Source of the DNA: Terriglobus aquaticus
GTDB taxonomy: Bacteria > Acidobacteriota > Terriglobia > Terriglobales > Acidobacteriaceae
Direction: 5' to 3'
Assembly: GCF_025685415.1 (NCBI RefSeq)
Contig: NZ_JAGSYB010000001.1
Span: 2,232,001-2,296,000 of the forward strand
Length of the DNA stretch: 64,000 nt
Part shown: in pieces, positions 42,400 to 54,734 of the stretch
Layout: each line of letters opens with the position of its first letter
Position numbering within the stretch: position 1 is the stretch's first letter
Program-made: the position numbers and the translations under genes
Notes under the pieces: generated by a model
What the model was told of the DNA's origin: nothing
The model's input: the letters and a program-made list of their open reading frames with translations, nothing else
Database searches by the model: none

Positions 42400-42686
42400 A
42401 TATGCCCCGCTCTTTTCTTTCCCGACAAGCGTTCACTCTACTTTCGTAAATTGCTACCACCGCTGCGCCGCCCGACTTCGACTTGCCACCGCACGGATCC
42501 GATAACTTCTCAGAGGCATTTGCCCATCGCCGGCTAGGGCGTCTGCCGAACTGCGGTTGTTTCGTGTGAGAGCACCGGGTACCACTTTGGGGAGAGTCTG
42601 CTCTCGCCCGCGTCACTAACCAGCAGCTCATGCGTCTGTGAATATGAACACGCGCGTTGGCCATCCAAGGCCGCTGGAGGCACAAC

Positions 42687-43689: not shown

Positions 43690-46600
43690 CTAGAAGGTGT
43701 AGCGCGCACCGAACTGGAACTGGCGAGGTGTGTTCGCCGCGCCGAACACGGCACCGAAGCCGGTCAACACGGTTGGGTCCGTTACAGCATCTGGGTTCCA
43801 GAAGACGTTGGGGTAACCATACTGCACGGTGTTGGTCACGTTGTACCCGGCGACCTCGAGCCGCAGGTTGGTCTCGTGTGGCATGGCGAAGGTCTTGTAG
43901 AGCGAGGCGTCCAGATTGTGGGCGCCATCAGTGCGCACGTTGGACAAGTAAGCCGGTGCGGTTCCGGCGGCGAACTGGCTTGCTGGCTGCGAGAAGCACG
44001 AGGGCGAGAACCACTGCTCGGCGGTGTGCGGCGCACCCTGGCTGGCATTGCAGGTCAGGTCGACGCGCTGATTAAAGTACGGATTGCCGGTTCCCACCGG
44101 GGCCGCGATAGGCACGCCACTGCTGAGGTACACAATGGTGTTGACGGTCCAACCACCCAGCAGCGAGTTTGTTACGCCATGCAGATTGAGCAGTTTGCCT
44201 TTACCAATGGGAAGGTCGTAGGAAATCTGCGAGTTGAACTGGAACTTCACATCCTGCGGAGAGACGGCGCGCTCGAGATTCAGATTGCGCCAGTCCTGCG
44301 GACTACCGGAGTGATAGCCGACAAAGTTCAGCGGCGTGTAGCTGGCATCGGTCAGAAGCTTGCTCCAGGTGAAGCTGTTGATCATCGTCAGGCCGTTGCT
44401 GAGCCGCTTTTCAACCTTGGTCTGGAGTGAGTTGTAGCTTGAGTCCGCAACAGGAAATCCGTTCACGGTCACGCCATGGTTGAACGATCCGTTCGAGAAC
44501 TGCGGGTAGGGCAGCAGCGACATCCACAATGGCACGGTGCTGGATCCGGCGTACGGATTGGTGGCGGGCAGGATCGGGTTCCACTTGTTTGCGACCATCT
44601 GACAACCGGCACTGCCGTCTACGCAGAGCTGTGTGCCGTACTGCGCGATGGTCTGAATGGGAAGCGTATTCAGGTCGATTGAGCCTAGCGAGAGGAACAG
44701 ACCGCGACTGCCGACGTATGCCAGCGTGAACACCGTGTGGCCTGGGAACTGCTGCTCGACTCCGAAGTTGTAGTTGTAGGTGGTTAGCGTTCGCGGGTTG
44801 GGCAGCACGGTACTCAGGCCCACGCCGATGTTGGTGGCAGGACCCGCAGCAGAGCCTTGCGGGATGACAACGCCGTTCGGGAATGGATTGCTCAGCGGAT
44901 TGAGCAGCACCGTGTTGCCGTCGCTGTTGTATTGCGTGGCGTTCCACGTGGTGGATGAGGTGAAGCCGTCACTGTCGAATGAGGTGTTCGCGACCATGTT
45001 GGCGCTGGGGCCGTAGTAGATGCCGGCACCGCTGCGCACGACTGTGCCGGGCATGGGCTCCCAAGCGAAGCTGGCACGCGGGCCGATGTCTTTCCAATTT
45101 GTATTGAAGGGCGAGCGGCGATCTCCACCCACGAAGCGTTCCCCACCGGTGAGTGCGACGCCGTTCACGGTGTAGGCCAGGGTCGGGTCGAAGTACTCCA
45201 GGCGATTGTGCCGTTCGGTGCGGCCGCCAAAGATCTCCCAGCGCACACCCACGGTTGCGGTGAACTTTGGCGTGACGTGGTAGACATCCTGCACAAACGT
45301 TGCGTAATACGGGCTTGCCACGGCGCCAAACAGGTCTTTGGTGAAGTTGTCGGCCTCGTTGCCGGGTGCTGAACCCATGCCGATCAGGAAGCTTGCCCAG
45401 TCGCTGCCGTCTCCGGCAAACGTGGTGGAACTGGTTGCGGTTTTATCGAAGCTGTACGCGCCCGCTGGAAAGGCAGGCTGTCCCAGGTTCATGAACTTCT
45501 TCTGGTACTCAAAGCCGGCGCTCAACTCGTGCTTGCCCAATAGGTGCGTGATGGACGCGCTGGCATCGCTGTTCTCGCTGACAAAGATGAAGTTGTCATA
45601 GTTGCCGGTGCCACCCACTGGAGCCGTGTCAGAGAACGTGATGAGCGGGATTTGCTTGAAGACGACCTGGTCGGCCAGCGACTGGGGAAAACCGGCGGTC
45701 GTGATGTTGTAGTTGTCCTGGCGCGGATCGCCTGTCTGTTTCTCGTTGTGGCGGGTAAAGGAATAACGAAGCTGCAGCAGTAATTTTGGTGACAGCGTGA
45801 TGTCGTCGCCGATGAGGATGTTGTTCGTCGTGGTCAGATTCACGTAGTACAGCGGGTTGAACATGTTGGCATCGCCGTACTGATTACTGTTTCCTTGCTG
45901 CGTGTGGCCATACGAGTAGCGACCGAAGATGCGGTTGCTGCTGTTGGGGGCGAAGTCGATGCGAGCATCGCCTTTCTGCGCGTGCAACGGAGCCAGACCC
46001 GAGGTGGTCAGGTTGTTGGTGTGGAAGGGTCCCAGGCCGGCGGTGTTGGGCAGCGGCAGCTTGTCAGAGAAGTACTTCGCGACGGGGTCGATGTTTGCCG
46101 CCGGAACGATGTTGTTGGCGAAGGGCTGACGAAGGCCCGTGTTGGGGTCGTCGGGCAGCAGCGGGTTATAGATGGTGAAGCTGTCGGCCGAGAAGTCGCC
46201 GGTGCGCTCGGCAGCAGTGGGTACCGTGTAGCTGCCCGTTTCCAAATAGGCCTGCTGCGTGGCTTCGTAGTCGCCGAAGAAGAAGAGCTTGTCCCGGAGA
46301 ATGGGACCGCTGATCGCTCCGCCCTCCTGGTAGCGGTGGTAGTCGGGCGTACCCACGCCAGGGTTGGCGCGCTTGAAGAAGAAGTCGTTCGCCGCCACAG
46401 CGTTGGGCCGGAAGTAACCGAAGGCGTCGCCGTGAAAGCTGTTGCCTCCCGACTTGGTGACCAAGCTGATCACGCCGCCGCCACCGCTGGCATAGCTGGC
46501 CGGAGTGTTCTGCGTTTCCACGCGGAACTCTGCAACACCATCCTGCGGCACCTGGAATGCGGGCATGATGGTCGCGATGTTGTTTTCAGCAACGCCGATG

Positions 46601-47235
46601 GGACTGCCATCGAGCATGAAGTAGACGTTCCCCTGCAGCGACCCGTTGATGGTGTAGGAAGAGACGTCGATGCCTGTGCGCGCGTTGTTGATGCTCTGCA
46701 GGTCAGACGAGTTCGCGGTGCCATTGGCCGGTGATACGCCTGTGCTGAGCTGTACCAATTGGTAGACGTTGCGGGTGAGCAGCGGAACACGGTCGATGGT
46801 CTCCGCCGGAATGAGCTGACCGACGGTTGCGCTGGAGGTATTGATCGGCGAATCTGAGGCGTCGACAGTGACGGTTTCGTTGACGCTGCTGATCGGCAGG
46901 TGCACGTTGATGCTGTTGGTCTGGTCCACGGTGACCACCACGTTCTTTTGCAGAACTGTGTTGAAGCCCGGGTGCGTCACGGTGAGTTCGTAGGTGCCGG
47001 GAGCGACCGAGACGAAGCTGTAGACGCCGGAGTGAGAGCTTGCCGCTTTCTGGACGAGGCCCGTCTTGACTTCCCGAAGTTCGATCGCAGCGTCAGGAAC
47101 GACGGCTCCCGCAGTGTCGGTCACGGTACCGCTGACGCCTCCACGGCCAGCCTGGGCGAACGTGGTAACGGCGAAAACCGTGCAGCATGCTGCTGCCACG
47201 AGGGGAAGAAGATGCCGCGAGCTACGTCCTGCCAT
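43690..47235 (-). CDS. TonB-dependent receptor, Oar/CarboxypepD-regulatory type
   Basis: It has 1181 residues from the ATG at 47235, with CTGGAGG five bases upstream. A signal peptide (about 1-27) is followed by a carboxypeptidase-regulatory-like fold (about 30-110: GTVTDTAGAVVPDAAIELREV, GVYSFVSVAPGTYELTVTHPGF). A plug domain (about 120-290, with IMPAFQVPQDGVAEFRVETQNTPASYASGGGGVISLVTKSGGNSFHGDAFGYF) and an outer-membrane beta-barrel follow, ending in FQFGARYTF with a terminal aromatic. Imports an oligosaccharide or similar ligand with TonB energy. It is divergent from a LacI regulator, with a shared promoter-operator region. No SusD-like partner is seen. Confidence 0.94.
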   Translation of the reverse strand: MAGRSSRHLLPLVAAACCTVFAVTTFAQAGRGGVSGTVTDTAGAVVPDAAIELREVKTGLVQKAASSHSGVYSFVSVAPGTYELTVTHPGFNTVLQKNVVVTVDQTNSINVHLPISSVNETVTVDASDSPINTSSATVGQLIPAETIDRVPLLTRNVYQLVQLSTGVSPANGTANSSDLQSINNARTGIDVSSYTINGSLQGNVYFMLDGSPIGVAENNIATIMPAFQVPQDGVAEFRVETQNTPASYASGGGGVISLVTKSGGNSFHGDAFGYFRPNAVAANDFFFKRANPGVGTPDYHRYQEGGAISGPILRDKLFFFGDYEATQQAYLETGSYTVPTAAERTGDFSADSFTIYNPLLPDDPNTGLRQPFANNIVPAANIDPVAKYFSDKLPLPNTAGLGPFHTNNLTTSGLAPLHAQKGDARIDFAPNSSNRIFGRYSYGHTQQGNSNQYGDANMFNPLYYVNLTTTNNILIGDDITLSPKLLLQLRYSFTRHNEKQTGDPRQDNYNITTAGFPQSLADQVVFKQIPLITFSDTAPVGGTGNYDNFIFVSENSDASASITHLLGKHELSAGFEYQKKFMNLGQPAFPAGAYSFDKTATSSTTFAGDGSDWASFLIGMGSAPGNEADNFTKDLFGAVASPYYATFVQDVYHVTPKFTATVGVRWEIFGGRTERHNRLEYFDPTLAYTVNGVALTGGERFVGGDRRSPFNTNWKDIGPRASFAWEPMPGTVVRSGAGIYYGPSANMVANTSFDSDGFTSSTTWNATQYNSDGNTVLLNPLSNPFPNGVVIPQGSAAGPATNIGVGLSTVLPNPRTLTTYNYNFGVEQQFPGHTVFTLAYVGSRGLFLSLGSIDLNTLPIQTIAQYGTQLCVDGSAGCQMVANKWNPILPATNPYAGSSTVPLWMSLLPYPQFSNGSFNHGVTVNGFPVADSSYNSLQTKVEKRLSNGLTMINSFTWSKLLTDASYTPLNFVGYHSGSPQDWRNLNLERAVSPQDVKFQFNSQISYDLPIGKGKLLNLHGVTNSLLGGWTVNTIVYLSSGVPIAAPVGTGNPYFNQRVDLTCNASQGAPHTAEQWFSPSCFSQPASQFAAGTAPAYLSNVRTDGAHNLDASLYKTFAMPHETNLRLEVAGYNVTNTVQYGYPNVFWNPDAVTDPTVLTGFGAVFGAANTPRQFQFGARYTF

Positions 47236-47273
47236 GAAGGCCTCCAGGAGAGAACTTTTTTGCTGCTTCCGGC

Positions 47274-47291
47274 TATTCAAACCTTTGAATA
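47274..47291. promoter_or_regulatory. 18-bp palindrome, probable LacI-type operator
   Basis: TATTCAAACCTTTGAATA has perfect 8-bp arms (TATTCAAA / TTTGAATA) around a CC centre. It lies about 7-24 bases after the predicted transcription start of the TonB gene, where a repressor would block. The neighbouring divergent gene encodes a LacI-family regulator. The central CC differs from the CG of many LacI operators, so binding is a hypothesis. Confidence 0.7.
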
Positions 47292-47304
47292 AGTGTGAAT
47301 AGCA

Positions 47305-47333
47305 GATATAGTTCCGCAGTGAAGGCGTGTCAA
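47305..47333 (-). promoter_or_regulatory. strong sigma70 promoter of the TonB receptor gene
   Basis: On the minus strand, TTGACA (47333-47328) and TATATC (47310-47305) are separated by exactly 17 bases. The -35 matches the consensus completely and the -10 in five of six positions if TATAAT is allowed a final mismatch pair. The start of transcription should fall near 47298, with a 5' leader of about 60 bases before the ATG at 47235. Confidence 0.85.
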
Positions 47334-47388
47334 GCTTTTCGTTCACTTGATTTCTACAACACTCCTAAACAGGCAGGGGCCACACCAG

Positions 47389-48471
47389 ATGCCGCAGCGA
47401 AAATCCGGCCACGTGACGCTGAGCGATGTGGCACGCGCCACGGGCTTTTCCGTGTCCACGGTGTCGATCACGTTGAGCGAGGCGCCGCTTTCGGCAAACG
47501 TTGCAGCGTCCACACGGGAAAAGATCCGAGCCACAGCGGCCAAGCTGGGCTACCACCCCGACGCGCGCGCGCGTTCGTTGCGCAAGCAAAGCTCCGGCAC
47601 GGTCGGCGTGCTGGCGTTCGATCTTTCCGATCCCTTTTGTATGCCGGTCGTGCAGGGAATACAGTACGGTCTGCAAGAGACGGCCTATCTGCCGCTGGTA
47701 ATGGACGCGCACACGGAGCGCAACGTCTTCGATCACTCTCTGCGGCTGATGCTGGAACGCCGTGTGGATGGAGTGATCGTGATCGCAAGCTGGACCTTTG
47801 ACGAGGCCAGCCTGCTTGCGGACATCAAGAAAAACGCGGTTCCGATGCTGATCATTGGGCGCGATCTGACCCACAGCGGCGTGACGTCGTACCTGTTGGA
47901 CAACGAAGAGGGCGGCTATCTGGCCATGAAGCATCTGCTGGAACTGGGACACCGGAAGATCGCGGTGATCCGCGGCCCGGGCGAGATGTTTGACAGCGCT
48001 CCGCGGTGGGAAGGCATGCAGCGTGCCGCGGCGGAGGCAGGTGTGAGATTACTGCCAGAGCTTACGCCGCAACTGCCGATGCTGGGCAGCCCCGGCGATG
48101 CGTTTGAAGGCGGTCGCACGATCGTTGCGGAACTGCTGAAGACGAAGCAGACCTTCACTGCGGTGACTGCGTTTGATGACATGACAGCGCTGGGTGTGGT
48201 GCGTGGCTTGTACGAGGCCGGACGATCGGTACCGGAAGACTGTTCCGTGGTGGGCTTTGACGATGTGCTGCCTGCCCTGGTGGCCACTCCGCCCATCACC
48301 ACTGTGCGGCAGCCGATGCGCGAGATGGGACTGCAAGCGGTAGAACGCATGCTGAGCCTGCTGCAGAAACCCGCAGGAACACAGCGAGTTGGCAAGTTCT
48401 CCAGTCCACCACAACTGGTGTTGCGCGCGTCCACGGCTCGCATTGCGGGCAGAAAGCGAGCTTCGCATTGA
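47389..48471 (+). CDS. LacI-family transcriptional regulator
   Basis: It has 360 residues from the ATG at 47389. The LacI helix-turn-helix (VTLSDVARATGFSVSTVSITLSEAP, with hinge-helix region LGYHPDARARSLRKQ) is at about 8-64. The periplasmic-binding-like effector domain includes VGVLAFDLSDPFCMPVVQGI, VDGVIVIAS and FTAVTAFDDMTALGVVRGL, with the sensor fold SVVGFDDVLPALVATPPITTVRQP. It probably controls the divergent TonB receptor and the GH2-permease-GH3 genes that follow, in response to a sugar from the imported substrate. Confidence 0.93.
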   Translation: MPQRKSGHVTLSDVARATGFSVSTVSITLSEAPLSANVAASTREKIRATAAKLGYHPDARARSLRKQSSGTVGVLAFDLSDPFCMPVVQGIQYGLQETAYLPLVMDAHTERNVFDHSLRLMLERRVDGVIVIASWTFDEASLLADIKKNAVPMLIIGRDLTHSGVTSYLLDNEEGGYLAMKHLLELGHRKIAVIRGPGEMFDSAPRWEGMQRAAAEAGVRLLPELTPQLPMLGSPGDAFEGGRTIVAELLKTKQTFTAVTAFDDMTALGVVRGLYEAGRSVPEDCSVVGFDDVLPALVATPPITTVRQPMREMGLQAVERMLSLLQKPAGTQRVGKFSSPPQLVLRASTARIAGRKRASH

Positions 48472-48530
48472 CCCCGCCAGTCCTCATCCATCTCTGCTCC
48501 CGGAACCAAACCACGCGCTGGAGATCTGCC

Positions 48531-51146
48531 ATGCATCGCAATCGTCTGCTGTTCCTGCTTGTTGTGTTCGTCTGCTTGAGCTCACCCATCTTTGCGGCGG
48601 AGACCGCATTCCATGAGGGTTGGCAGCTGCACACGGGCTGTGGCTTGCAGGAGGATGGAGCAAAGCTCTCTTCGGTGTCGTACAGCGCGGAGGGTTGGCT
48701 GCCTACTGCCGTGCCGGCCACGGTGTTGGCGGCACAGGTGTCTGCGGGCCAGTATCCCGACCCCTATTTCGGTAACAATCTGCGCAAGCTTCCGGGCATG
48801 GGCTATCCCGTTGGCAGGAACTTTGCAAACCTGCCGATGCCCGAGGACAGCCCGTATCGCTGCGGCTGGTGGTACCGCAAACAGTTCGCCGCACGGCCGG
48901 AGAAGGGCCGGCGCACCTGGCTGCATTTTGGCGGCATCAACTATCGCGGCGAGCTGTGGGTGAATGGCAAGCTGATCGCCGGCAAGGATGCGATCGCTGG
49001 AGCGTATCGCATCTACGACTTCGACGTGACCGACGCGCTGCAACCCGGCAAAGACAACGTGGTTGCGCTGCAGGTATTTGCGCCGACGGAGAAGGATCTC
49101 GGAATTAATTGGGTCGACTGGAATCCGGCACCGCCCGACAAAGATATGGGCTTGTGGGGCGCTGTTTCGATGGTGACCACGGGCGATGTGGTGCTGAACA
49201 GTCCCATGGTCGTGACACACTTTGCTGACAACGCGCTGCGCGCCGCTGACCTGACCGTTTACGCGGAAGCGCAGAACGCGACGGCCGAGGCGAAGTCTGC
49301 TGTGATCCGAGGAACGGTAGCGGGTCACCCTGTGGAGCAGAAGGTGCAGCTCGCCGCTCACGAGACTCGCACTGTGACGTTCGCGCCCGTGCACGTGACG
49401 GATCCCAAGCCGTGGTGGCCGAAGCAGATGGGAGAACCGCACCTGGAGCAGTTGAGCCTGGCCGTCAGCGTGTCTGGAGTGAAGACGGACGATAAGCAGA
49501 TCTCGTTCGGCGTCCGCGAGATGACTTCGGAGCTGACGGGCAATGGCAGCCGCCTGTTTCGCGTGAATGGCAAGCCAATCCTGATTCGTGGCGCTGGCTG
49601 GTCGCAGGACATGCTGCTGCGAACAGATAGCCAGAAGCTGCGGGATCAGATGGACCTGGTGCAGGCGATGAACCTGAACACGATTCGGCTTGAGGGCAAG
49701 CTGGAAGTGGATGAGTTCTTCAGGCTCGCGGATGAGCGCGGCATCTTGGTGATGCTGGGTTGGTGCTGCTGCGACAAGTGGGAGCAGTGGTCGACGTGGA
49801 CCGACGATGACCTGAAGATCGCGTCGAAATCGTTGCAGGATCAGTTGCTGCGACTGCGCAGCCATGCCAGCCTGCTGGTCTGGTTGAATGGCAGCGACAA
49901 TGCGCCGCCGCCGAAGGTGGAGCGCGCCTATCTGGATGTGGAGGCGGCAACACACTGGCCCAATCCGATACTCAGTGCTGCATCCTCACAGAACACAGCA
50001 GTGAGCGGAGCAAATGGCGTGAAGATGACCGGGCCGTATGACTACGTGGAGCCAGGCTACTGGTACGTGGACCAGCGGTACGGTGGCGCGTGGGGCTTCA
50101 ACACGGAAACGAGTCCCGGCCCTGCGATTCCCTCGCTGGCGAGCCGGAAGAAGTTCCTGAGCGATCCGGAGGCGTGGCCTCCCACCGATGACTGGCGCCT
50201 GCACAACGGCAGTGGTGAGTTCGCGACGCTCAACGTGTTCGACAACGCGATGGCCGCCATCTATGGCAAGCCGACCTCTGCTGCCGAGTACGAGCGCATG
50301 GGGCAGACGCTCACCTACGATTCCGAACGTGCCATGTTTGAGGCATACACGCGCAGCAAGTACCAGGCTACCGGCGTGGTGCAGTGGATGCTGAACAATG
50401 CTTGGCCCTCGATGATCTGGCACTTGTACGACTACTACCTGGATGCCGGCGCAGGATACTTCGCGACGCGCAAGGCGTGTGAACCTCTGCACATCCAATA
50501 CGCGTACGATGATCGCGGCATCGACGTGGTGAACAGCACCTACGCCGCATCTGGGCCGCTGCACGCAGCGGTGAGCGTGCGTGACCTGGCATGGAAGGAG
50601 CTGTACCGCAACGAACAGGACGTGACCCTTGCCGCAGACAGCGTTCAGCAGGTGACAACCGTGCCTGTCGCGCTATACCGCAGCGGGCAGCGCATCCTCT
50701 TTCTCGACCTCGCCTTGCGTGACAGCAAAGGCGAGGAGGTAAGCCACAACGTGTATTGGGTGCCGACGACGCTGACCAGCTTTGACTGGTACGGAACCAA
50801 TTACACGCACACCCCGGCAGATCGCTACGAAGACCTGGCGGCGTTGACTCGGCTGCCTGCAGCGCAGGTTGAGACGCACATTGCGTTGCGAAACGCAGAC
50901 AAGCATACGGCAAAGGTGACGTTACGCAATCCATCCAGCAATCTTGCGTTTCAGGTTCACGTGGCGGCTCGTACCGCGGCCGGCGACCTGGTGGCGCCGG
51001 TGATGTGGTCCGACAACTGGATTGAGATCGCGCCGGGAGGAACCGTCGTGCTCACGGGTGTTCTGCCGCAATCTTTGCCGAGCGATCTAGTGTTTGAGGT
51101 GGAGGGCTGGAACGTTGCACATGCCACCCTGAAGGCGGCGGAGTGA
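48531..51146 (+). CDS. GH2 exo-beta-D-glucosaminidase-like enzyme
   Basis: It has 871 residues from the ATG at 48531, with GGAG upstream. Signal peptide about 1-22. Three beta-sandwich domains and a TIM barrel follow the GH2 plan. Unlike galactosidases/mannosidases, which have an Asn-Glu acid/base, this protein has WLNGSDNAPPP with Asp456, and the nucleophile Glu526 in GFNTETSPGP. Their spacing of 70 residues matches that of the characterised exo-beta-D-glucosaminidase CsxA (Asp469/Glu541 by memory, spacing 72). That enzyme removes GlcN from chitosan oligosaccharides. It is followed by an APC permease and a GH3 gene. Confidence 0.9.
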   Translation: MHRNRLLFLLVVFVCLSSPIFAAETAFHEGWQLHTGCGLQEDGAKLSSVSYSAEGWLPTAVPATVLAAQVSAGQYPDPYFGNNLRKLPGMGYPVGRNFANLPMPEDSPYRCGWWYRKQFAARPEKGRRTWLHFGGINYRGELWVNGKLIAGKDAIAGAYRIYDFDVTDALQPGKDNVVALQVFAPTEKDLGINWVDWNPAPPDKDMGLWGAVSMVTTGDVVLNSPMVVTHFADNALRAADLTVYAEAQNATAEAKSAVIRGTVAGHPVEQKVQLAAHETRTVTFAPVHVTDPKPWWPKQMGEPHLEQLSLAVSVSGVKTDDKQISFGVREMTSELTGNGSRLFRVNGKPILIRGAGWSQDMLLRTDSQKLRDQMDLVQAMNLNTIRLEGKLEVDEFFRLADERGILVMLGWCCCDKWEQWSTWTDDDLKIASKSLQDQLLRLRSHASLLVWLNGSDNAPPPKVERAYLDVEAATHWPNPILSAASSQNTAVSGANGVKMTGPYDYVEPGYWYVDQRYGGAWGFNTETSPGPAIPSLASRKKFLSDPEAWPPTDDWRLHNGSGEFATLNVFDNAMAAIYGKPTSAAEYERMGQTLTYDSERAMFEAYTRSKYQATGVVQWMLNNAWPSMIWHLYDYYLDAGAGYFATRKACEPLHIQYAYDDRGIDVVNSTYAASGPLHAAVSVRDLAWKELYRNEQDVTLAADSVQQVTTVPVALYRSGQRILFLDLALRDSKGEEVSHNVYWVPTTLTSFDWYGTNYTHTPADRYEDLAALTRLPAAQVETHIALRNADKHTAKVTLRNPSSNLAFQVHVAARTAAGDLVAPVMWSDNWIEIAPGGTVVLTGVLPQSLPSDLVFEVEGWNVAHATLKAAE

Positions 51147-51149
51147 CGC

Positions 51150-52466
51150 GTGAGTGACGCTACAGAACATGGCGGGCTTCGGAGATCGCTGCGCCTTTCA
51201 GACCTGGTGCTCTACGGCATCATCCTGATTCAGCCCACGGCGCCGATGCCCGTCTTCGGCGTAATCCAGACCACGGCGCACGGCCACGTGGTCACCGCGA
51301 TTCTGCTGGCAATGATCGCAATGCTGTTCACCAGCGTGAGCTACGGTCGGATGGCGCAGATTCATCCCCAGGGTGGATCGGCGTTCCTGTATGTCGGCAA
51401 GGAAGTGCACACCGGAGCGGGCTACCTTACGGGCTGGTGTCTGGTGATGGATTACGTGTTGAATCCGCTCATCTGTACCATCTGGTGCAGCCGTGCGGCA
51501 ATCAACTTCTTGCCGGGCATTCCGTACATCGCGTGGGCCATCTTTTTCGCAGCGTTCTTCACACTGGTCAACTGCCTGGGAGTCGAAACGTCCGCTCGCA
51601 TCAATCGCGGTATGGCGCTCGCGCTGGGCCTGGTGATCGTGCTGGTCCTGGGCGCCGCGGTGCGATGGTTGTTGCATTTGCCTGCGATCACATCGCAGTT
51701 CCTGATGGCACCTTTCTATGATCCGCGACACTTTCAGATGTCCGGGCTCCTTCGCGGGACGTCGATCGCGGTGCTCACGTACATCGGCTTCGACGGCATC
51801 TCCACGCTGAGCGACGAAGCGGTTCGGCCCAGCCGAGACATTCCACGCGCGATCATCTTTACGTGCCTGCTAACGGGCGTGCTGGCGGCTATTGAGGTGT
51901 ATGTGGCGCAGTTGGCCTGGCCGATCACGACCGCCTTCCCAGACGTGGATACCGCATACGTTCACGTGATGCAGCGTCTGGGCGGCGCAGCACTGTTCAT
52001 CATCGTGAATGCGGCGCTACTTGTTGCCAATATCGGGTCTGGCATGGCGTCGCAACTGGGTGCGGCGCGCTTGCTGTACGCCATGGGACAGGATGGAGCA
52101 TTGCCCCGCACCTTCTTCGGATCGGTTTCGCTGAAGAGTCGTGTGCCGCGCAACAATGTTCTGCTCATCGGTGCGCTGTCGCTGGCCGGAGCTTTGCTGT
52201 TCAGCTATGCACTCGGAACAGAGTTGCTGAATTATGGCGCGCTGCTCGCCTTCATGGGAGTGAACCTTGCCTGCATCATTCACGCCGTGCGCCAGCGCAG
52301 GGCCGATCTGTGGCGGTGGGTACTTCCATCCGCGGCTGGACTGCTCACCTGCCTGCTGCTTTGGATCAACCTGAGTCCGCTTGCCTTGACGGTTGGAACC
52401 GTCTGGGCTCTGTCTGGCATTGCGCTTTGGCTGGTTCGAGGACGCTCTACGACGTTGCCCGCATAA
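51150..52466 (+). CDS. APC-superfamily permease
   Basis: It has 438 residues with about 12 membrane segments, from a GTG start 3 nt after the GH2 stop. The APC pattern is seen: LVLYGIILIQPTAPMPVFGV in TM1, SVSYGRMAQIHPQGGSAFLYVGKEV after TM2, FDGISTLSDEAVRPSRDIPRAI, and NIGSGMASQLGAARLLYAMGQDGALPRTFFGSV. Most characterised relatives carry amino acids, amines or purines. Being placed between two glycosidases, an amino-sugar substrate is a reasonable guess, not shown by sequence. Confidence 0.85.
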   Translation: MSDATEHGGLRRSLRLSDLVLYGIILIQPTAPMPVFGVIQTTAHGHVVTAILLAMIAMLFTSVSYGRMAQIHPQGGSAFLYVGKEVHTGAGYLTGWCLVMDYVLNPLICTIWCSRAAINFLPGIPYIAWAIFFAAFFTLVNCLGVETSARINRGMALALGLVIVLVLGAAVRWLLHLPAITSQFLMAPFYDPRHFQMSGLLRGTSIAVLTYIGFDGISTLSDEAVRPSRDIPRAIIFTCLLTGVLAAIEVYVAQLAWPITTAFPDVDTAYVHVMQRLGGAALFIIVNAALLVANIGSGMASQLGAARLLYAMGQDGALPRTFFGSVSLKSRVPRNNVLLIGALSLAGALLFSYALGTELLNYGALLAFMGVNLACIIHAVRQRRADLWRWVLPSAAGLLTCLLLWINLSPLALTVGTVWALSGIALWLVRGRSTTLPA

Positions 52467-52475
52467 GGAGGAACG

Positions 52476-54734
52476 ATGCATTCAACTTCGCGTTCTTTTC
52501 TGCACACAGTTGCTTTGCTGTGCATCGCTCCTGCGGTCGTGCTGCACGCCGCGGACGACGCCAAGAAGCCCGCCCCGAAGCCGTGGATGAACACGAAGCT
52601 GACTGCCGACCAGAGGGCCGACCTGCTGCTGCACACGCTCACGCTGGATGAAAAGATTCAACTTCTGCACGGCACCGGAGACCCACACGACGGGCGGCCC
52701 GACCCGCTGGCGCGCGATGGCAACGGCGGGTCCGGATACGTTCCGGGTTTTCCTGACAAGGACTTTCCGGGACTGCAGATCATCGATTCAGCGAGCGGCG
52801 TGTGCTATTCGGCGGGCAGCGGCCGCTACTCCACTGCCCTGCCCGCAAATATCGCGCTGGCCAGTTCGTGGGACACCCAGCTCGCGGAGCGCTACGGTGC
52901 CATGATCGGGCAGGAGCTGCGCAACCTGGGTTACAACATGACTTTAGGCGGCGGCGTGAACCTGACCCGCGAGCCACGCGACGGACGTACGTTTGAATAT
53001 CAGGGCGAAGATCCCCTGCTTGCTGGAACGATGGTGGGTCACCTGATTCGCGGCGTGCAATCGACGCACGTCGTCGGGCACATCAAGCACTTCGCCGTGA
53101 ACGACGAGGAGAGTGGCCGGCATGCAATCTCGTCGGAAATCAGCGAGCGAGCGATGCGCGAGACAGACCTGCTCGCCTTCCAGACCGGCATTGCGATCGG
53201 CCATCCCGGAGCCGTGATGTGCGCCTACAACCGCGTGAACGGCACCTACGCCTGCGAGAACGACTTCTTGTTAAAGACGGTGCTGAAAGGCGAGTGGAAG
53301 TATCCGGGCTTCGTGATCTCGGACTGGCTTGCCACGCATTCCACGGTGGCCGCTTCGCGAGCGGGCCTGGACCAGGAGCAGCCCAGCAACGTCTTCTTCG
53401 GCCCGGCGCTGAAGCAGGCTGTTGAGCACGGGCAGGTGTCGCAACGCGAAGTGGATGACCACGCGCACCGCGTATTGCGCTCGATGTTCGAGGCAGGCGT
53501 GGTGGACGATCCGCCGCAGAAGCAGGTTCCGGATGTTTTTGCTCATGCCCGCCTGGCGCGAGAGGTCGAACGCAAGAGCATCGTCCTTCTGCGCAACGAA
53601 CATGCGCTGCTTCCCCTGGACGCGAGCCGACCGCAACGCATCCTGGTCGTAGGCCGCAATGCGAACGTGGGCATGATCTCCGGCGGTGGATCGGCACAGG
53701 TCGATCCGCCCAGCGGCAACGCGATCGGCGATATTCCCGCGAAGGAGCGGAAGCAGGATTGGCAGAAGGCGGTTTGGTTCCCGGATGCGCCGCTAGATGC
53801 TGTGCGAGAAGCCGCACCTTCCGCCGCCGTCGCCTTCGACGACGGAACAGATCTTGCACGCGTCAGTCGCGCAGCGGCAGCGGCGGACGTTGTGCTCGTG
53901 TACGCATACCAGTACATGTCGGAGGGCGTGGACCTGCCAACGCTTGCTCTGCCCGACTCACAAGATGCGCTGATTGCGGCGGTCGCCAAGTCGAATCCTC
54001 ACACGGCAGTCGTGCTGGAGACGGGTGGCCCCGTGCTGATGCCGTGGCTTGACCAGGTGGGCGGAGTGCTGGAGACCTGGTTCAGCGGAACATCGGGTGC
54101 CGAGGCGATCGCGGATACTTTGTTCGGCAAAGTGAACCCATCAGCAAAGCTCCCGGTCACCTTCCCACGCAGTGACGCCGACCTGCCCCATCCCCAGCTA
54201 GCCTCGCCGCCTGCAGCGTCGCAGGAAGACTGGAGTGATGAGGCGAAGATGTCGCGCAAACTGCTTGCCGGCCTGCCTTCCTACCCGATCGCCTACGACG
54301 AAGGCTTGCAGGTGGGCTATCGCTGGTACGACCAGCAGCATAAGCCGGTGCTCTACCCGTTCGGCTTCGGCCTGTCATATACGTCGTTCGAGTACTCGTC
54401 GCTGGGAGTGGAACAAGGCAACACGATCCGCGTGACCTTCACGGTCCGAAATACCGGGACGCGAGCGGGTGACGAGGTCGCGCAGGTCTATGCAGCCATG
54501 CCTTCGAACACAGGAGAACCGCCCAAACGCCTGATTGGATGGGCCAAGGTGCACGTTGAGAGTGGCTCGACAGCAAGCGTAGTTGTGGACGTACCCAAGG
54601 AACGCCTCGGCATCTGGAGCGAGACCGACCATCGCTGGACCATTGCGAAGGGAAGATATGGCATCTCTGCCGGACCAGACTCCGGCCACCTCTCGCTCAC
54701 GACGGAAATCGATTTGAGCAAAGTCAATTACTGA
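52476..54734 (+). CDS. GH3 exported beta-glycosidase
   Basis: It has 752 residues from an ATG with a strong AAGGAGGAACG five bases upstream. Signal peptide about 1-25. The GH3 N-terminal barrel has GVNLTREPRDGRTFEYQGEDP, KHFAVNDEESGR and the nucleophile in FVISDWLATHS (Asp283). The second alpha/beta domain has VLVYAYQYMSEGVDLPTLALPDSQ, and the fibronectin-like C-terminal domain includes FTVRNTGTRAGDEVAQVY. It splits beta-linked glycosides; with the GH2 enzyme it probably finishes digestion of imported oligosaccharides. It ends the cluster. Confidence 0.94.
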   Translation: MHSTSRSFLHTVALLCIAPAVVLHAADDAKKPAPKPWMNTKLTADQRADLLLHTLTLDEKIQLLHGTGDPHDGRPDPLARDGNGGSGYVPGFPDKDFPGLQIIDSASGVCYSAGSGRYSTALPANIALASSWDTQLAERYGAMIGQELRNLGYNMTLGGGVNLTREPRDGRTFEYQGEDPLLAGTMVGHLIRGVQSTHVVGHIKHFAVNDEESGRHAISSEISERAMRETDLLAFQTGIAIGHPGAVMCAYNRVNGTYACENDFLLKTVLKGEWKYPGFVISDWLATHSTVAASRAGLDQEQPSNVFFGPALKQAVEHGQVSQREVDDHAHRVLRSMFEAGVVDDPPQKQVPDVFAHARLAREVERKSIVLLRNEHALLPLDASRPQRILVVGRNANVGMISGGGSAQVDPPSGNAIGDIPAKERKQDWQKAVWFPDAPLDAVREAAPSAAVAFDDGTDLARVSRAAAAADVVLVYAYQYMSEGVDLPTLALPDSQDALIAAVAKSNPHTAVVLETGGPVLMPWLDQVGGVLETWFSGTSGAEAIADTLFGKVNPSAKLPVTFPRSDADLPHPQLASPPAASQEDWSDEAKMSRKLLAGLPSYPIAYDEGLQVGYRWYDQQHKPVLYPFGFGLSYTSFEYSSLGVEQGNTIRVTFTVRNTGTRAGDEVAQVYAAMPSNTGEPPKRLIGWAKVHVESGSTASVVVDVPKERLGIWSETDHRWTIAKGRYGISAGPDSGHLSLTTEIDLSKVNY

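Follow-up and report, generated by a model that had tools for sequence, protein, structure and literature searches.

Which glycan is processed by a locus that pairs a glycosidase with an amine-type permease, and which of its products would the permease carry into the cell? The question arises from five genes in a 64,000-nucleotide stretch of the Terriglobus aquaticus genome (contig NZ_JAGSYB010000001.1, positions 2,232,001–2,296,000; hereafter the window), where a TonB-dependent receptor gene, which we take to be of the Oar type, diverges from genes for a LacI-family regulator, a glycoside hydrolase family 2 (GH2) enzyme, an APC permease and a GH3 glycosidase. Our analysis makes it probable that these genes, under LacI control, serve to scavenge oligosaccharides that end in glucosamine (chitosan oligomers or related beta-glucosamine glycans), and that glucosamine (GlcN) is imported by a PuuP-type permease. 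The first-pass annotation had already proposed a system for GlcN oligomers, and most of that proposal was upheld by the GH2_16 fingerprint of the enzyme, by the recurrence of the TonB-LacI-GH2-APC set with a common operator and by permease relatives near amino-sugar genes; the GH3 gene turned out to be an accessory. Acidobacteria are abundant soil bacteria whose use of fungal amino-sugar polymers is poorly mapped, and the locus offers a compact gene set with a named, predicted operator and a testable transporter.

In the proposed mechanism, the receptor would carry oligomers into the periplasm, and the exported GH2_16 enzyme would take GlcN off their non-reducing end. The permease would then import free GlcN as a cation, probably together with H+, a step suggested by its subfamily, its residues and its genomic neighbours. 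Inside the cell, GlcN would be phosphorylated by a kinase encoded elsewhere and possibly deaminated by a stand-alone GlmS-type isomerase (C1:1632448-1633596), homologues of which sit between GH2 and APC genes in five related loci. LacI would repress both the receptor gene and the LacI-GH2-APC(-GH3) transcript from one common operator; the operator is supported by conservation, and repression, inducer and transcript are what we infer.

The GH2 enzyme and its regulator

The window GH2 protein is a full-length relative of CsxA, a chitosan exo-glucosaminidase, and carries the exo-beta-D-glucosaminidase (GH2_16) fingerprint. CsxA (PDB 2vzs) matched it with 548 bits over residues 50–888, compared with 93 bits for the best beta-mannosidase. 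The motifs WLNGSD and GFNTE, previously pointed out as an active-site pattern, were confirmed at residues 472–477 and 543–547 (numbering of the longest open reading frame, ORF) and aligned with CsxA Asp469 and Glu541, which are exactly the positions where the mutant CsxA chains 2vzo and 2vzt depart from 2vzs. The available excerpt of PMC12243196 describes a 2025 division of GH2 that puts glucosaminidases in GH2_16, with a strictly conserved SD where NE is usual and a Glu where His is usual, and lists EC 3.2.1.165 among GH2 activities; its passage gives no number for this Glu, and E409 of the window enzyme corresponds to CsxA Glu394 by the 2vzs alignment only. Both replacements were found in the window protein (S476-D477 and E409), and these residues, as well as E547, were invariant in all 81 sequences compared, i.e., the window and 80 related loci retrieved with peptide patterns that exclude the fingerprint sites. 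The homology covered the full length and included the Ig_GlcNase domain. Judged on these residues, set against the NE and Val that occupy the fingerprint positions in the two best GH2 paralogues of the window genome, a mannosidase or galactosidase appears to be ruled out. GH2_16 enzymes attack the non-reducing end, so the linkage cannot be read from the locus, and the window enzyme would likewise release GlcN from that end. In sum of likenesses, it shares with CsxA the full-length match, the catalytic SD and Glu, the residue aligned with Glu394 and the Ig_GlcNase domain, but differs in standing in an acidobacterial LacI/TonB/APC unit.

To locate the operator, a consensus, ATTCAAACGTTTGAAT, was derived from palindromes common to the LacI-receptor gaps. 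At up to three mismatches, it gave 65 matches in the 81 sequences (1,447,339 bases), compared with 0–3 for each of 20 scrambled palindromes, and the matches were spread over 44 of the 81 sequences. Thirty-three lay upstream of LacI, 22 between LacI and GH2 and three upstream of a GH2 gene without an adjacent LacI, so that 58 of the 65 were upstream of LacI or GH2; three more stood just after a LacI elsewhere, and four elsewhere. At up to two mismatches, a site was present in 32 of the 44 LacI-adjacent loci (28 upstream of LacI, 16 before GH2, 12 both) and missing from 12, including all five loci with a GlmS-type gene; in three of the 12, the sequence is cut close to LacI. The window genome contained a single good site, in the gap between the receptor and LacI genes (Table 1). 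A larger LacI regulon in this genome was not supported: up to three mismatches gave four places, compared with two for the reversed control, which leaves the window site as the only conspicuous one. In one genome (G048, locus L132), LacI, APC and a PfkB kinase occur without GH2, and sites lie ahead of both the APC and the receptor genes. The window palindrome is thus likely to be the LacI operator. LacI itself combines a helix-turn-helix with a sugar-binding domain, and with this predicted palindromic operator beside its own gene it seems to be a regulator dedicated to the locus.

The gene set and the permease in relatives

The TonB/LacI/GH2/APC set recurs in Terriglobales. Locus counts refer to the window and the best 80 of 349 relatives, and the 80 loci are therefore biased to close kin; neighbours were counted at fixed distances, and loci without room were dropped (six for APC, three for LacI, ten for the receptor and 12 for GH3). 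Counting was done by tblastn because plain ORF calling laid wrong-frame ORFs on genes in GC-rich loci (e.g., L013, L074 and L161), and family scans cover individual copies only (L144, L147, L082, L053, L064, L129, L132 and L135). A LacI homologue stood immediately 5′ of GH2 in 43 of 77 loci with room and a divergent receptor homologue more than 40% identical in 28 of 70, and LacI, divergent receptor and APC were found together around GH2 in 17 of the 80. Five loci (L077, L079, L080, L082 and L084) contained a stand-alone GlmS-type isomerase between GH2 and APC; the one copy scanned, in L082, scored 382.3 bits against a cut-off of 381 (NF001484). Among 80 genomes of the order, GH2 (E 1e-120) was detected in 36 and APC (E 1e-50) in 41. 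Coordinates placed 15 GH2-APC pairs in tandem and four in convergent orientation within 1.5 kb; in one further genome, G008, the two are separated by an AgaS-family gene, and both genes were present but apart in nine genomes. The expectation that a GH2(SD)-APC-GH3 triplet would be conserved beside LacI and TonB genes in Terriglobia was borne out for TonB-LacI-GH2-APC but not for GH3, which lay downstream of APC in three of 68 loci with room (L010, L074 and L009, the last from Terriglobus roseus DSM 18391, where all five genes stand in the order of the window); GH3 was rejected as a core member and is an accessory of the locus.

A protein of about 740 aa is encoded after GH2 in four loci (L063, L065, L066 and L067), beside the APC-PfkB pair at L132:4760-6961 and at L179:9900-12110. 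The one copy scanned, that of L132, contains an F5/8 type C domain and gave no glycosidase Pfam match at E 1e-6; a new glycosidase family is possible.

Compared with eight E. coli APC proteins, the window permease belongs by sequence to the PuuP/PlaP putrescine:H+ symporter subfamily. Phmmer scored it at 230.6 bits with PlaP, 225.4 with PuuP and 11.8 with YjeH, and gave no report at E 10 for FrlA, AdiC, CadB, PotE or YbaT; the permease family profile gave 332 bits for PlaP, 330 for PuuP, 54 for FrlA and 22 for YjeH. The earlier assignment to the APC family was thus correct (PF13520/PF00324), but the protein is of the PuuP/PlaP amine type rather than a generic APC permease. FrlA, annotated as an APC permease for fructoselysine, is the nearest precedent known to us for the proposed hexosamine importer and, by the same search, is not close to the window protein in sequence.

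Residues of the first transmembrane helix (TM1) set this subfamily apart. The TM1 GxG of amino-acid permeases holds the carboxylate; the other six E. coli APCs have this motif, which is replaced by P-M-T in PuuP and PlaP and by P-T-A in the window protein, and Q28, P29 and A31 occurred in 38 of 38 aligned homologues. P29, D101, Y102, P106, F214, D215, E223, Q254 and N372 were shared by all 38 homologues, PuuP and PlaP; in the other six APCs, Y102 and F214 were found only in YbaT, and E223 in FrlA and YjeH. PuuP and PlaP also have a TM1 Asp (window column 34), which would be a defining residue of these putrescine symporters, with presumably one acid for each amine of putrescine; all 38 homologues have Pro, Gly or Ser in its place. 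An AlphaFold2 model built from 38 sequences (mean predicted local distance difference test score 85.3) contained a TM1 helix gap at residues 28–35, and its closest solved fold in Foldseek, the arginine-bound transporter 6f34 (TM-score 0.85, 24% identity), points to a LeuT-type APC fold. The window permease thus resembles PuuP and PlaP in overall match, in the conserved residues and in a TM1 without GxG, but lacks the TM1 Asp and is encoded in a glycosidase operon, whereas puuP lies beside puuA.

Analysis of the genomic company of the permease revealed repeated links with amino-sugar genes, namely GlmS-type isomerase, AgaS/AgaZ/AgaR and NagB-like deaminase. Forty-six APC matches were found in the order, 40 of which were examined for neighbours: 19 lay within 1.5 kb of GH2, seven were aga-type or AgaS-linked (L135, L138, L139, L140, L142, L144 and L147; 48–55% identical to the window permease) and two formed LacI-APC-PfkB units (L131 and L132). 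Genes for AgaS, AgaZ, AgaR, a PfkB kinase, a GH36-like enzyme and a TonB receptor accompany the permease in the aga-type clusters, the combination differing from one to the next; in L144, which was scanned in full, AgaZ scored 594.5 against a cut-off of 568.8 and AgaR 269.4 against 260. In a permease tree of 57 rows, which leaves out matches without a clean ORF of at least 350 aa, the window protein fell in a 23-row clade (97/95), 17 rows of which stand directly after GH2, and six rows of another, nine-row clade (100/100) stand in aga clusters; the FrlA, YjeH and YbaT rows formed saturated branches. Permeases of this kind look rare beyond the order: 13 of 149 sampled genomes of the phylum had a match at E 1e-60, three of them in other families. 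No clear amino-sugar gene was seen in their surroundings, and the GH2 gene near one of them (L192) lacks the fingerprint.

On this basis, the chances seem to us evenly balanced that an Acidobacteriota branch of PuuP/PlaP-like APCs consists of free-hexosamine:H+ symporters, with a GlcN clade beside GH2_16 under a dedicated LacI and a galactosamine (GalN) clade in aga clusters, derived from diamine symporters that lost the TM1 Asp, the presumed ligand of the second amine. If true, hexosamines would have an import class separate from the phosphotransferase system (PTS), ABC, NagP-type MFS and NagX, and free amino sugars a new bacterial route via a kind of transporter otherwise known for putrescine. 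If the permease carries GlcN, uptake of free GlcN and GalN gains a new transporter class, and PuuP-type permeases of these genomes that would receive an amino-acid or polyamine importer annotation have to be reinterpreted. Neither GH2_16 enzymes nor LacI/TonB units are new in kind; for a PuuP-type permease as free-hexosamine importer, the portions of the open-licence PMC literature that were covered contained no description.

Several other permease loci contained further genes. At L147:3827-6661 (minus strand), a GH2 gene adjoins AgaS and the permease; its product is 31% identical to the window GH2, keeps the GH2_16 fingerprint and is a candidate exo-beta-galactosaminidase. Two loci of the window's genus (L129 and L130) encode a permease 67–68% identical to the window's, accompanied by TonB receptors, a sulfatase with an SGSH_C domain and a protein that resembles galactokinase but scored below cut-off; sulfated amino sugars may be the substrates there. 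A gene of unassigned family (919 aa; L133:4906-7665) immediately precedes that of a permease 60% identical to the window's. PfkB kinases of one family lie 3′ of APC in L029, L051 and L064 and 3′ of GH2 in L049 and L069, and also occur in L131 and L132; since this family is common to the APC/GH2 loci and the aga clusters, it may represent a hexosamine kinase. A division of APC-type and MFS-type aga clusters by loss of NagA was not clean, because the MFS-type cluster of the window genome also has no NagA in the stretch.

Catabolic partners and competing explanations

Genes that could complete the pathway were located elsewhere in the window genome. The stand-alone GlmS-type isomerase (382 aa) is 55% identical to its homologue in L029 and scored 357.7 bits against a cut-off of 381. 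A ROK kinase, an MFS porter, a GH20 and a SIS gene lie at about 1294–1300 kb, matches to PfkB, AgaR and AgaZ together with another MFS porter at about 3345–3354 kb, and two NagA genes above cut-off elsewhere. The sole PF01182 (NagB-type) match of the genome sits, by eye, among pentose-phosphate-like genes and is probably a 6-phosphogluconolactonase; a SIS-type deaminase would thus be needed, and the GlmS-type isomerase makes a candidate for glucosamine 6-phosphate available outside the locus.

A number of observations weigh against a dedicated GlcN unit. APC lay within 700 nt 3′ of GH2 in 31 of 74 loci with room; in seven of the 36 GH2 genomes, among them all five GH2-positive ones of the second family, APC was not detected at E 1e-50; and a stop fell inside the GH2 match in four genomes (G028, G052, G070 and G074) and two loci (L051 and L055). 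In the accessible part of PMC3570800, the congener T. saanensis is described as unable to hydrolyse chitosan, a comparison of phenotype and not of locus content. No kinase or deaminase gene was found within the window locus, and the aga-like cluster of the same genome has an MFS transporter in place of APC. Among the neighbours of permease relatives, the AgaS of L144 matched its family below cut-off (296 against 529.2), as did the NagB-like protein beside the permease of L135 (136 bits against 326). Twelve of the 40 examined APC matches had no amino-sugar neighbour, as judged mainly by a tblastn panel, and the top NCBIfam models for the window permease were general amino-acid transporters, all below cut-off (TIGR00909, 124.7 against 556.8).

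The alternative that survives best, though we regard it as doubtful, is that the same machinery serves another beta-GlcN glycan in place of chitosan, for instance deacetylated poly-GlcNAc, a disaccharide of the lipid A type or a mixed exopolysaccharide. It accords with the non-reducing-end action of GH2_16 enzymes and with the accessory GH3, which may suggest mixed chains, but the closest solved homologue of the enzyme is CsxA, which acts on chitosan. As well as T. saanensis, Acidisarcina polymorpha does not hydrolyse chitosan (part of PMC6252331; again phenotype and not locus content), and use of polymeric chitosan by the window organism is therefore uncertain.

Less likely still is a permease that shares the operon by chance and imports polyamines or amino acids in the ordinary way, for example to gain nitrogen compounds freed with the glycan. 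The closest characterised relatives of the permease among the controls used are putrescine symporters, and the 12 matches without amino-sugar neighbours and the NCBIfam models would fit such a role; the association with GH2, GlmS-type and aga genes over several genera, and the replacement of the PuuP/PlaP TM1 Asp in all 38 homologues, argue against it.

Import of D-glucosaminate, i.e., periplasmically oxidised GlcN that would be deaminated to 2-keto-3-deoxygluconate before phosphorylation by PfkB, in the manner of the ong pathway for oxidised chitin, is the most improbable of the three. Upstream of the unit in three loci (L047, L053 and L060), an amidohydrolase gene adjoins one of the D-serine-dehydratase type (PF14031), and the amidohydrolase of L053, the copy scanned, is PRK09061-type at 168 bits, below the cut-off of 340. 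By annotation, the pair resembles OngB, a putative D-aminoacylase, and OngC, a fold-III pyridoxal phosphate (PLP)-dependent deaminase, as given in the consulted part of PMC9537276; that the families are the same is our own reading. The PfkB kinases 3′ of APC or GH2 would also fit this route, but the same PfkB family is found in aga clusters too. Moreover, the three loci are the only ones, are close in the permease tree and have a divergent permease (42% identical), the TM1 GxG that would hold a carboxylate is missing in 38 of 38 homologues, and the GlmS-type and aga partners indicate phosphorylated hexosamine routes.

Related systems and layout of the locus

The GlcN-scavenging unit proposed here can be compared with three other kinds of system. 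As outlined in the same part of PMC9537276, the ong pathway likewise combines TonB receptors, a periplasmic glycosidase, a symporter and a repressor, and OngB/OngC-like genes occur in the three relatives mentioned above, but it uses an SSS-family symporter and OngA (GH20) where the window has GH2_16 and a PuuP-type APC. In the aga clusters, sister permeases stand with AgaS, AgaZ and AgaR in varying combinations, whereas the window locus has none of the three and the PfkB, AgaR and AgaZ matches of its genome lie elsewhere, with an MFS carrier. SusCD-type polysaccharide utilization loci of Bacteroidota also have a TonB receptor adjoining glycosidases, but no SusD was seen in the window, by eye among ORFs of at least 150 aa in 41–58 kb or by Pfam of the five genes. 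The same inspection by eye revealed no ABC, PTS or MFS importer, as the first-pass annotation had stated; family scans there covered the five genes and one 253-aa ORF.

The five ORFs were located where they had been placed before, with the families then given (Pfam), and their coordinates are collected in Table 1. The reported spacing of within 10 nt each was accurate, with 3 nt from the GH2 stop to the APC start and 9 nt from the APC stop to the GH3 start, and so was the regulatory region common to LacI and the receptor, the two genes being divergent from their likely ATG codons. Start codons of the receptor, LacI and GH2 genes were assigned by inspection; the longest LacI and GH2 ORFs overlap because they open at upstream GTG/TTG codons, and 59 nt separate the LacI stop from the likely GH2 start.

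Table 1. Coordinates of the locus and its sequence features in the window
Feature	Position	Strand	Details
TonB-dependent receptor, presumed Oar-type	43690..47235	-	likely start ATG 47235, longest ORF to 47346; PF25183 616 bits, PF13620
Divergent regulatory region, receptor/LacI	47236..47388	.	153 bp, start codons read from sequence
Probable LacI operator ATTCAAACCTTTGAAT	47275..47290	.	16-bp palindrome, conserved across relatives
LacI-family regulator	47389..48471	+	likely ATG 47389, longest ORF from 47347; PF00356, PF13377
GH2_16-type exo-beta-D-glucosaminidase (predicted)	48531..51146	+	likely ATG 48531, longest ORF from 48468; CsxA match, PF18368
GH2 Glu409, aligned with CsxA Glu394	49692..49694	+	E in 81/81 sequences
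GH2 Ser476-Asp477, SD acid/base motif (CsxA Asp469)	49893..49898	+	SD in 81/81
GH2 Glu547, nucleophile position (CsxA Glu541)	50106..50108	+	E in 81/81
APC permease, PuuP/PlaP type, predicted hexosamine:H+ symporter	51150..52466	+	phmmer against E. coli APCs, AlphaFold2 model
APC TM1 break QPTAPMPV (residues 28-35), in place of GxG	51231..51254	+	model helix gap, conserved Q28/P29/A31
GH3 glycosidase, accessory	52476..54734	+	PF00933, PF01915, PF14310

The receptor combines a CarboxypepD_reg domain (PF13620) with an outer-membrane barrel (PF25183), and the Pfam scan gave no plug-domain match at E 0.001. Besides the Ig_GlcNase domain, Pfam detected PF22666, PF00703 and PF17786 in the GH2 protein. 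Neither NCBIfam nor Pfam, at the limits applied, matched the 253-aa ORF at 42657. An N-terminal signal was recognised by eye on both GH2 and GH3, and the ORFs flanking the locus, also named by eye, are kinase-like and UvrA-like.

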